From: Anaerolineae bacterium
Lineage (GTDB): Bacteria; Chloroflexota; Anaerolineae; Anaerolineales; Villigracilaceae
Direction of reading: 5' to 3'
Length of the DNA: 52,076 bases
Assembly (NCBI GenBank): GCA_018648685.1
Contig: JABGQT010000103.1
Span: 1 to 52,076, forward strand
In this document: piece after piece, positions 14,285 to 19,543 of the stretch
Layout of the letters: every line of letters begins with the position of its first letter
How positions within the stretch are numbered: position 1 is the stretch's first letter
Notes under the pieces: model-generated
What the model was told of the DNA's origin: nothing
What the model saw: only the letters and a program-made list of their open reading frames with translations
Databases searched by the model: none
Position numbers and translations under genes: made by a program

Positions 14285-14932
14285 ATGTTAAAAATCAGTC
14301 GTGTTTCTCGTACAAAAGAAGAAGCCAGCCAAAATTATGACCGGCTCAGTCGCTTGTACGATCTCTTTGCCAGCAGCGAAAAGAAATTCACCGACTTTGG
14401 TTTAGAAATGCTTGCTGTGCAAAGCGGCGAATCCGTGCTTGAGATCGGCTTTGGTACAGGACACGCGCTCCTAAAATTAGCGCGGGCAGCACACCCGGCA
14501 ATCGTCAATGGCATCGATATTTCGAAGAAAATGCGCATAGTGGCAGAAAGGAAACTTAGACGCGCAGGGCTAAAAAATGCTATTCGCCTAAAAACGGGCG
14601 ATGCGGCAAAACTCCCTTACGATAATTTTCAATTCGATGCTATTTTTATCAGCTTTACACTGGAATTATTCGATACCCCCGAAATGCCTTTTGTCCTCCA
14701 AGAGTGCTACCGTGTTCTAAAACCCGGTGGAAGATTGGGAGTCGTGGCGCTAAAAAAAGAATGTCGTGCCATCCACGTTTATGAGTGGTTCCATGAGAAG
14801 ATGCCCACCTTTGTAGATTGCCGCCCTATTTACGCAAAAGAAAGCATTGAAGATGTGGGGTTTCAAATTACTAAAAACAAAAAGATGACAATGTGGGGGC
14901 TACCTGTTGACATTCTTCTCGCAAAAAAATAA
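14285..14932 (+). CDS. Class I SAM-dependent methyltransferase, UbiE-like
   Basis: 215 residues with the Rossmann methyltransferase signature. Motif I, VLEIGFGTGHALL, starts near residue 51. An acidic residue follows motif I in NGIDISKKM. Motif II/III is FDAIFISFTLELFD, and post-motif LKPGGRLGVVALKK closes the core. The N-terminal NYDRLSRLYDLFASSEKKF resembles UbiE/COQ5-type quinone or lipid methyltransferases. The substrate cannot be assigned. It is the last gene of a close set of three. Its ribosome site is weak, consistent with translational coupling to the nitroreductase gene. Confidence 0.85.
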   Translation: MLKISRVSRTKEEASQNYDRLSRLYDLFASSEKKFTDFGLEMLAVQSGESVLEIGFGTGHALLKLARAAHPAIVNGIDISKKMRIVAERKLRRAGLKNAIRLKTGDAAKLPYDNFQFDAIFISFTLELFDTPEMPFVLQECYRVLKPGGRLGVVALKKECRAIHVYEWFHEKMPTFVDCRPIYAKESIEDVGFQITKNKKMTMWGLPVDILLAKK

Positions 14933-14940
14933 TTTCTTAC

Positions 14941-14971
14941 AAAAAAATCCCCAACAAATTGTTGAGGATTT
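14941..14971 (-). terminator. Minus-strand terminator after the riboswitch-like array
   Basis: AAATCC and CAAC (14945-14955) pair with GTTG and GGATTT (14961-14971), with one mismatch. On the minus strand the stem runs into seven T (14947-14941). It would end a transcript coming from the array at 14988-15268, and it converges on the methyltransferase gene. Confidence 0.7.
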
Positions 14972-14987
14972 GCATCACGAAGGTGTA

Positions 14988-15268
14988 AACGCTCTTCGGG
15001 AGTTTGGCAATCTTAGCCACTTCAGAAAAAGTTCGGCTTTAGACCCATAACTTTGCGCCATCAACTTTCATTGATTTTACCTGTTCGGCAAGTTAGTCAT
15101 CTTTGCTATCAACTTCAAGAGCAACAACCCAGATACTAACTTTTGCGCTTCAAACTTTCGTTTGATTTGCCTTTTCGGCGGTCTTTTTCTCCTAGCCTTT
15201 CGACTTTAGAGACAGAGAGAAGACTCTGCTGTACAGACTTTCATCTGTATCGCTTTTTCGGAGCGTTA
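14988..15268 (-). ncRNA. Tandem array of three GEMM-like (cyclic-di-GMP-I) aptamers, apparently without a downstream gene
   Basis: Read on the minus strand, three units of about 95-100 nt repeat the same architecture, at roughly 15268-15172, 15182-15083 and 15092-14990. Each begins near CCGAA and has a GAAA tetraloop hairpin (ACAGAU/GUCUGU, CAAAC/GUUUG and AUCAAU/GUUGAU stems). The second and third then have GCGCAAAAG or GCGCAAAG and GGGUU or GGGUCUAAAG. Every unit closes near another CCGAA. These are the hallmarks of the GEMM/c-di-GMP-I aptamer (GGCAAA, GAAA loop, ACGCAAAG, GGGUC, GCCGAA). The third unit fits best and the first is degenerate. A terminator follows, then only an opposing gene. 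I could not run a covariance search. Confidence 0.55.
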
Positions 15269-15334
15269 CACTAAAATTATTGCACAAAAAACGCAAAAAG
15301 ACAAGTTAGTGAAATTTATCACGACGCCTTCATC

Positions 15335-15628
15335 TCAAAGTACTAAATCACCATATTCATCAGAGTGCCTGCGAATATAGGCATCCACAAACGAACAAAG
15401 GGGAATTACCTTATAACCTTTCTCGCGAGCATGATCCAACCCTGCGCAAACAATATGGCTACCAATCCCCCGCCCGCCCAGCTCTTGGGGAACTCCGGTG
15501 TGTGTAAAGCTAATTACGTCATCTCGAAGTCTATAGTCTAGCTCTGCGATTTTCCCTTCAAGGTGAATTTCAAAGCGATTTCTTTCCTGCAAATGGATAA
15601 CTTCTAACTTGTTGATCTTTTTGTTCAT
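15335..15628 (-). CDS. Small GNAT-like N-acetyltransferase (Acetyltransf_CG type)
   Basis: 97 residues, the usual length for the short single-domain GNAT family related to YjdJ. The acetyl-CoA phosphate loop is QELGGRGIGSHIV (about residues 49-60). LDHAREKGYKVIPLCSFVDAYIRRH closes the fold. These proteins bind acetyl-CoA and have no well-defined substrate. AAGGAGA lies upstream of the ATG. The minus-strand transcript could run on into the riboswitch-like array that begins about 65 nt beyond its stop codon. Confidence 0.88.
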   Translation of the reverse strand: MNKKINKLEVIHLQERNRFEIHLEGKIAELDYRLRDDVISFTHTGVPQELGGRGIGSHIVCAGLDHAREKGYKVIPLCSFVDAYIRRHSDEYGDLVL

Positions 15629-18206: not shown

Positions 18207-18992
18207 GTGAAAAAAAATATTTTGTTTATTCTTAGTGCCGCATTATTATTCACAATAGCTTGTATTTTGAGTGCGCCAGCACCGCCAACAGAAGCGCCAA
18301 ATGTAAATAGCTCGATCGCAACTTCAGTTGCCTTGACTTTAGCCGCAAGCGGACAAGCCCCTCCTGGAGCCACAATCCCAACACCCCTACCAACGATGAC
18401 CCAATCCATTCCTCCAACGGTAACCCTTACGCCCACCATCGCGTTAACTGCAACGCCCTCCGTACCAATGGCTAGCGTCAGCGTAAACACAAACTGCCGT
18501 ACAGGGCCTGGGAAAGTTTACGATTATATAGGAGCCCTAACCATCGGAGAAAAAGCGGAAGTTGTTGGAAAACACACATCAAGCAATTACTGGGTCATCA
18601 AAAACCCCAATGCTAATGGCAATTGTTGGCTCTGGGGTTATTATGCAACCGTTGCTGGAAATACAGCAAACCTTCAAGAATATATTGTGCCGCCTACGCC
18701 CACACCTTCAATTCCTATTGCGCCATCAAATTTAGCAGCAGCTACAGCTTGTGCAGGTGTAGCACCAAATTTCATGATTTCAGTTGATCTTATTTGGGCA
18801 GATAATTCCGATAACGAAACTGGTTTCAATTTATACATCCATGGCCTGATCTCATCTATATACCCTGCTGATCAAACGCAAGATGCCTTTGACTTCCCTG
18901 TTGGTAACGGTATTCCCGCTGATATTGGAATATCTGCCTATAATGGTACAGGAGAATCCGCCGTTCAGACAATACAGGTCGTTTGCCCATAA
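18207..18992 (+). CDS. Secreted or lipid-anchored protein with bacterial SH3-like and Fn3-like domains
   Basis: 261 residues, starting at GTG with AAGGAGC upstream. The signal region ends in a Cys at about residue 19 with a non-ideal lipobox (TIAC). A Pro/Thr-rich linker spans about 24-90. Residues about 90-150 resemble a bacterial SH3 domain (NTNCRTGPGKVYDYIG, EVVGKHTSSNYWVIKN, CWLWGYY), which often binds peptidoglycan. After a second TPTP linker, residues about 175-261 form an Fn3-like beta domain. The next gene carries a related C-terminal domain. The two are probably surface proteins of linked function. Confidence 0.75.
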   Translation: MKKNILFILSAALLFTIACILSAPAPPTEAPNVNSSIATSVALTLAASGQAPPGATIPTPLPTMTQSIPPTVTLTPTIALTATPSVPMASVSVNTNCRTGPGKVYDYIGALTIGEKAEVVGKHTSSNYWVIKNPNANGNCWLWGYYATVAGNTANLQEYIVPPTPTPSIPIAPSNLAAATACAGVAPNFMISVDLIWADNSDNETGFNLYIHGLISSIYPADQTQDAFDFPVGNGIPADIGISAYNGTGESAVQTIQVVCP

Positions 18993-18994
18993 TC

Positions 18995-19543
18995 ATGAAA
19001 AATTACAAAATTTTCTACAAAATAGTAGGTATCATACTCTTGTTCAGTCTAAGCTTAAGTGCCTGCAATATGCCAAGCACACCCCCGCCTGGATTATCCA
19101 TTGAAGAACAGGCGGGGACTCTCGCCGCGCAAACGATTGAAGCAGCCATAACGCAACGCCCGACGGAAACCCAAGTACCCGCAAATACGCCAACAAAGGC
19201 TCTGCCTCCCACCGCTGCAGTTACAGCAACAACTTCGCCAACGCCAACGGAGAATCCCGGTCTTCCTGCTGAGCCAAGTTTAAAAAAATACGACTTCTTC
19301 TGCTCATGGAATGGTGCCAATAATGATCTAGCCATCACGATTGAGTGGACAGATAAATCAAGCAACGAACTTGGCTTTATTATTCTCCGAAATGGTACAG
19401 AGATCGCAAATCTGATCCCAAATACAAGTCAATATACAGACACTTACGCCGTTGATACCAGCGTGGCAGTCAATTACGCCATCCAAGCCTATAATAATAG
19501 CGGTGCTTCAGGGCAGGTGACATTATCGGCGGCTTGTCAGTAG
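18995..19543 (+). CDS. Lipoprotein with Thr/Pro-rich linker and Fn3-like domain
   Basis: 182 residues from the ATG at 18995, 2 nt after the preceding stop codon. The signal peptide ends in a clear lipobox, LSAC. A helix (IEEQAGTLAAQTIEAAI) and a Thr/Pro-rich linker follow. The C-terminal part (about 100-182, with IEWTDKSSNELGFIILRNGTEI and YAIQAYNNSGASGQV) aligns by eye with the C-terminal domain of the gene before it. This points to a tandem duplication with loss of the SH3-like part. A TTG start upstream is possible but would spoil the signal peptide. Confidence 0.75.
   Translation: MKNYKIFYKIVGIILLFSLSLSACNMPSTPPPGLSIEEQAGTLAAQTIEAAITQRPTETQVPANTPTKALPPTAAVTATTSPTPTENPGLPAEPSLKKYDFFCSWNGANNDLAITIEWTDKSSNELGFIILRNGTEIANLIPNTSQYTDTYAVDTSVAVNYAIQAYNNSGASGQVTLSAACQ

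Follow-up and report, generated by a model that had tools for sequence, protein, structure and literature searches.

A conserved trio of c-di-GMP-I-type aptamers on one shared closing helix, a probable stand-alone noncoding RNA in Anaerolineales

The window analyzed here is a whole stretch of 52,076 nucleotides from an Anaerolineae bacterium (contig JABGQT010000103.1, assembly GCA_018648685.1). Three c-di-GMP-I-type aptamers were found head to tail on its minus strand, at positions 14986-15271, between a GNAT gene and a convergent methyltransferase gene (Table 1). A preliminary description of this locus had proposed three minus-strand units with GAAA hairpins and had likened them to c-di-GMP-I aptamers; the units were confirmed, and their description as c-di-GMP-I-type was supported. 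The hairpins were seen in all three units, unit 3 was recognized by the Rfam model RF01051, and a whole-trio model scored 245.3 bits over 14986-15271, the window being among the ten sequences from which that model was built. The RF01051 search that had been suggested as a check was positive for unit 3 and marginal for unit 2 (30.5 bits in one search and 39.8 in another, over 15084-15181, with a gathering threshold of 35), and it left unit 1 unmatched; no match of unit 1 to any Rfam family was obtained up to E=10. Units 1 and 2 of the window, being weak or unrecognized by Rfam, may be poor binders, and the P3 elements of both are also diverged in the window's genus, as judged by eye. The 332-nt minus-strand stretch folded 5.4 standard deviations better than 100 shuffled sequences (z-score -5.4). 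The intrinsic terminator previously placed at 14941-14971 was borne out, and the next gene is indeed transcribed towards the array. Beyond what had been described, a promoter was predicted between the trio and the GNAT gene, from which the RNA would start at about position 15269, and a closing helix shared by the three units was recognized, as was the conservation of the array.

Table 1. Features of the aptamer trio and its surroundings in the window.
Feature	Positions	Strand	Remarks
GNAT protein (Acetyltransf_CG), upstream neighbor	15335..15628	-	judged outside the RNA gene
Sigma-70-type promoter, hexamers TTGTCT and AATAAT 17 nt apart, the latter preceded by TG	15276..15304	-	predicted
Closing helix, 5' arm AACGCTC	15261..15267	-	pairs with 14988-14994; present in the MFE fold
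Unit 1 (5' aptamer-like unit)	15174..15264 (about)	-	position 20 = A; without Rfam match
Unit 2 (middle)	15084..15181	-	RF01051 match; position 20 = G
Unit 3 (3' unit)	14995..15091	-	RF01051, 65.5 bits (gathering 35); position 20 = G
Closing helix, 3' arm GAGCGTT	14988..14994	-	partner of 15261-15267
Intrinsic terminator, stem 14945-14971 then T-rich tail	14938..14971	-	predicted pairing with unit 3 not above shuffles
Methyltransferase, convergent neighbor	14285..14932	+	judged outside the RNA gene

The RF01051 matches in 40 relatives often lay in tight runs, with the units overlapping by about 7 bases. Ten trios were aligned under a hand-written structure whose pairs were counted, and a model of 275 positions (R1) was built from them. 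A search of 301 sampled genomes from the order with R1 gave a single complete trio in each of 38, which belong to five families: 31 in the window's family (f1) and seven in f8, f9, f13 and f14. The threshold of 160 bits was set by us in the gap between 161.7 and 142.9, six of the 38 genomes had contributed to the ten-sequence building set, and the count is a lower bound, as longer or shorter variants occur among the sub-threshold genomes. The recurrence of the same anatomy in 38 genomes indicated more than chance, and its absence above the threshold from the other 263 indicated that the trio is not essential. Beyond the order, no trio was found in samples of the class (396 genomes, E 1e-40) or the phylum (400 genomes, E 1e-30) under these strict filters; at the thresholds used, the trios in both samples were confined to f1.

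Furthermore, a collection of 84,980 species was scanned with an exact pattern derived from unit 3 and the closing arm only. It was matched in 45 contigs, all labeled as members of Chloroflexi, Chloroflexota or Anaerolineae, with Brevefilum fermentans and Anaerolinea thermophila MAGs among them, and every one of them bore a trio (42 whole, three cut by the contig end), though the pattern had demanded unit 3 only. No pattern match was found in viral contigs. Over the 301 genomes of the order, the pattern GCCARRCTNCCGAAGAG was matched in 48, some of the matches being apparently coding sequence. Two loci stay outside the set of 42 used below: L116, which has a long insert and scored 141.1 bits, and L042, which is truncated at the end of its contig. 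These 42 loci and 17 sequences from the 45 pattern contigs gave an alignment of 59 rows, of which one was a duplicate, leaving 58 distinct trios. An apparently degraded trio with one good unit remaining was observed in L051 (G005), in the window's own genus.

Under the whole-trio structure, 93.4% of the pair cells of the 58 distinct trios held standard pairs, a figure that leans towards the model because the alignment was fitted to it. Changes on both sides were found in 52 of the 70 pairs, with a mean of 36.3 after shuffling, and pairing fell to 20-37% when the partners were slid by one to three columns. The two-hairpin fold was backed by covariation in all three units, and one outer helix joining the two ends of the array encloses them all. 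Its four inner pairs were formed in 58 of 58 trios, with double changes in three of the four, and its types include GCATCC/GGATGC, CCACTC/GAGTGG and GCAC/GTGC; the outer three pairs are weaker, being unpaired in 30, 23 and 10 of the 58. At least three of the four inner closing pairs were present in the minimum free energy fold of 36 of the 42 trios. The junction CCGAnAA is used twice, flanking one unit on its 3' side and the following unit on its 5' side, so that the internal units seem to lack a P1 of their own. Column conservation was highest in the closing helix (0.95) and the binding cores (0.84-0.89). It was lower in the flanks, at 0.52-0.66; among the P3 loops it reached 0.78 in unit 1 (6 columns), 0.49 in unit 2 and 0.59 in unit 3.

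A similar closing helix (GAGTG-type) was seen by eye on one unit (L180, G079) and on two units (L120, G143), and also on RNAs with longer inserts that may comprise further units (L116, L121, L043 in G036, L187 in G247). The number of units under the helix therefore seems to vary. For some units of L120, L116 and L042, RF03167 (c-di-GMP-I-GGC) gave a better match than RF01051, and one such match exceeded the RF03167 cut-off.

A sigma-70 match of at least 9/12 was found upstream of 41 of the 42 trios and in 16% of shuffled sequences, and for 28 of the 42 the -10 element ended exactly seven bases ahead of the CTC in the closing arm. Taken alone, the promoter of the window did not rise above local shuffles (one found, 1.1 expected). 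On the other side, a terminator-like hairpin scoring at least 17 followed 39 of the 42 trios (1.9% of shuffles), with weak scores only in L108, L112 and L115. A CAGGGATGAC-like terminator stem is common to many f1 loci and unrelated stems occupy this place in other genera; the spacer before the terminator also differs between genera. A functional role is conceivable for the CAGGGATGAC-like stem as well as for the P3 loop of unit 1.

The possibility that this terminator is a switch was weighed by the pairing between the 3' part of the aptamer and the terminator, a comparison limited to aptamers followed by a terminator, with ten truncated or otherwise compact-array loci and four more excluded. 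A z-score below -2 was reached by none of the 39 trios (mean +0.34, four below -1) and by 17 of the 32 non-trio aptamers of the fetched relatives (mean -2.26, 27 below -1), whereas the other 19 non-trio aptamers, lacking a terminator, gave none below -2. The window trio scored +0.7, and the single aptamers of its own genome -1.24 and -2.45. The longest perfect match between aptamer and terminator separated the classes poorly (means of 5.8 and 6.4). In an earlier test, duplex energies had fallen below z -2 for none of the 42 trios and for 8 of 14 gene-facing ends, but this control was unfair, as each of the six failing ends was the aptamer nearest the gene, whether the last of a series or a single one. 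Since strong competition with the aptamer is not seen in the trios, their terminator does not look like a switch, and this candidate was rejected. The opposite arrangement was observed in L044-L049 (G015, G016, G018, G022, G014, G005), where spaced c-di-GMP-I arrays, some of them in trio genomes, run in the order aptamer, terminator pairing with part of the aptamer, aptamer and gene.

The neighbors of the trio were compared over the 42 loci. The nearest upstream ORF lies on the trio's strand in 36 of them. One BLASTP cluster, of HlyD type according to Pfam (one member), is found upstream in 22 loci, and another, RuvB (Pfam, one member), is found downstream in 22; beyond these two clusters the neighbors are mixed and change between genera. 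The next gene is convergent in 11 loci. As the preliminary description had stated for the window, where tandem aptamers appeared to face no regulated gene, no consistent downstream gene was found across the 42 loci; several aptamers are present, but neither a terminator-type expression platform nor a controlled gene was found with them. The ruvB-type genes carry a TATAAT six to seven bases ahead of the ATG in 20 of the 21 loci inspected, the 21st being masked at this place; a -10 box at this distance suggests that their mRNA is leaderless (L036, L037, part of L084-L106, L113). A leader of ruvB was rejected as the identity of the trio, as ruvB has its own promoter, past the trio's terminator.

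Position 20 divided the units of the trio. The base before the P1b GC pair was read as what we take to be position 20 of Vc2, and A47 with G20 as what is presumably the conserved c-di-GMP-I pocket. A47 was kept in 173 of 174 units. Position 20 was A in 44 and G in 14 of the 58 first units, and A in 48 and G in 10 of the second units; in the third units it was G in 47, C in 8 and A in 3. The C was observed, for example, in L036, L097 and L100, the trios concerned having A/A or G/A at this position in units 1 and 2. In the non-trio aptamers of the same loci, position 20 was A in 6 of 52, a count made without ten truncated or otherwise compact-array loci and including one likely false match (L061); p-values computed on such counts ignore relatedness. 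The three sites therefore probably differ, as judged from these bases, and the contrast of units 1 and 2 with unit 3 looks like an old specialization. The preliminary description had taken the decay of the units from third to first to suggest duplication, which as a recent event was not supported, as the trio occurs in five families and its units 1 and 2 are systematically unlike unit 3.

This base may bear on the ligand. A Ser-type GGDEF motif is presumably the signature of a cGAMP synthase, and none was found among the readable motifs of two genomes, 15 of the 45 matches being unreadable: G000 had 21 Asp in 28 matches (seven unreadable), and G016 had eight Asp and one Asn in 17 (eight unreadable). 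The A20 of most unit 1 and unit 2 copies is shared with the c-AMP-GMP (3',3'-cGAMP) variants of c-di-GMP-I. Sites of unequal affinity are the safer reading, and a cGAMP role is possible. In the accessible text of two papers, position 20 or a G20A change is tied to c-AMP-GMP binding (PMC9481103, PMC6274999).

The trio, its closing helix, the promoter and terminator anatomy, the conservation, the changing neighbors and the position-20 pattern are all supported by comparison of the sequences. With its own predicted promoter, a terminator that does not look like a switch and changing neighbors, the trio most plausibly represents a noncoding RNA in its own right, neither a 3'UTR nor a leader, and we consider it very probably a stand-alone RNA of three aptamers. 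An RNA of about 330 nt, whose transcription we infer, would start at its own predicted promoter, fold as three c-di-GMP-I-type aptamers on one shared closing helix (P1) and end at an intrinsic terminator without sign of regulation. Up to three ligands could be bound per molecule, and the binding of the cyclic dinucleotide would itself be the function. Unit 3 would be the high-affinity c-di-GMP site and units 1 and 2 would be weaker or differently tuned, so that the second messenger would be buffered or sequestered. Ligand binding is the simplest function remaining where no regulated gene, switchable terminator or clear seed was found, and the fact that the binding cores and the closing helix are the most conserved parts favors a c-di-GMP sponge or reservoir. 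The 28 GGDEF matches in the window's own genome also speak for it, whereas the high RNA abundance that a sponge would need counts against it. Taken as a whole, the statement that this is a stand-alone RNA acting by c-di-GMP sequestration or buffering is one towards which we lean without firm conviction. The decoy or sponge and the small RNA, both suggested earlier, still give the best readings.

A more specific form was also considered, a new class of stand-alone RNA receptor with three cyclic-dinucleotide sites of mixed specificities (one for c-di-GMP and two of cGAMP type or of low affinity) on a single P1, tuning the free messenger in trans. It is put forward tentatively, as possible but doubtful. 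If it were true, no earlier case would be known to us of an RNA that buffers a nucleotide signal and is conserved across families.

Sequestration competes chiefly with the idea of an RNA that regulates in trans or works with a protein. Here the ligand would expose or hide a seed or a protein-binding surface, and the RNA would target distant mRNAs or proteins. Its own predicted promoter and terminator and its conserved structure would suit such an RNA, the mixed identities at position 20 could provide its logic, and the P3 loop of unit 1 is fairly conserved. No conserved seed is evident, however, as the flanks, two of the three P3 loops and the genus-specific spacer before the terminator are variable; a protein partner would not show itself in this way. 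We regard this explanation as rather unlikely.

A role in cis was judged distinctly improbable. The trio would then be a riboswitch or a 3'UTR element of a neighbor (GNAT in the window, ruvB or others elsewhere), or an antisense riboswitch on the convergent gene. The prevalence of same-strand upstream ORFs and the recurrence of the ruvB-type cluster downstream favor this reading, and c-di-GMP riboswitches are described, in the part of the source available, as more inclined to an antisense arrangement than any other family (PMC9943018). Nevertheless, a predicted promoter separates the trio from the upstream gene, the promoter of ruvB lies past its terminator, this terminator does not compete with the aptamer and the neighbors change between genera. 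The antisense variant is further weakened by the convergent gene being next in just 11 of the 42 loci and by the predicted window transcript, which stops (stem end 14945) short of the end of the convergent gene at 14932. The 3'UTR of the GNAT gene, which the preliminary description had offered, was judged less likely and rejected: a promoter intervenes (strong only when the relatives are counted), the upstream genes elsewhere are other ones, and the nearest upstream ORFs are divergent in L109, L112 and L115. A decaying relic of a riboswitch with a lost gene is highly improbable. Units 1 and 2 of the window are weak and a seemingly degraded copy exists in G005 (L051), but selection on the unit as a whole is indicated by the compensatory changes over 58 sequences, by the conserved promoter and by the presence of one complete copy in each of 38 genomes out of 301.

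As a rule, the aptamer of a riboswitch belongs to a gene. A gene-less aptamer unit with its own promoter and terminator, as expected of a reservoir RNA, is what is predicted here from the sequence. The closest likeness is to merRNA of Bdellovibrio bacteriovorus, for which its authors proposed the role of a c-di-GMP reservoir inside the cell (Karunker et al., 2013; PMC3627812), and which is likewise a noncoding RNA with a c-di-GMP aptamer and no conserved ORF described downstream. According to the same text, merRNA has 445 nt and one riboswitch described, was shown to be massively expressed and was not found conserved beyond the Bdellovibrio lineage, whereas the trio has three units on one closing helix and is found in several Chloroflexota families; the two were compared by description. 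The trio would make the reservoir idea, so far held for one lineage, testable in a second one.

The trio also resembles the tandem c-di-GMP-I riboswitches, with two or three aptamers in a row, of which 347 doublets and 12 triplets are reported in the available part of PMC9481103. Bc3-5 of Bacillus thuringiensis lies in the 5'UTR of cspABCDE and, as described in the accessible part of PMC4759541, consists of units that are full riboswitches, every one equipped with an expression platform. These arrays are treated in those texts as gene control; the trio differs in its CCGAnAA linkers and its single closing helix, with no platform or consistent gene seen. The units share with RF01051 and RF03167 their architecture, the GNRA hairpin, A47 and the CCGA 3' flank, and depart from both in that a separate P1 seems to be missing from the internal units and A20 predominates in units 1 and 2. 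Earlier work had already established the aptamer class, its arrangement in tandem and a single c-di-GMP RNA without a gene. No recognized description of the trio was found in the literature searched, mostly without subscription papers and without bioRxiv preprints, and within that literature three things are new: a stand-alone trio that is conserved and built on one P1 common to its units, the occurrence of this trio in several families of the order, and the split at position 20 between its units. If a conserved gene consists almost wholly of aptamers, bacteria would also use aptamers as free receptors. Caution is likewise advised with c-di-GMP-I matches scored as antisense or orphan riboswitches, some of which may be stand-alone RNAs.

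Additionally, two further c-di-GMP-I aptamers were found in the window's own genome (L117, 6313-6401, plus strand; L118, 5535-5627, minus strand). Each is followed 120-125 bases on by a similar ORF, of 185 and 186 aa, which looks exported by eye. In the window itself, an adjacent pair of ORFs (261 and 186 aa) at 18207-19543 on the plus strand appeared, also by eye, to be lipoprotein-like, with Pro/Thr-rich linkers.
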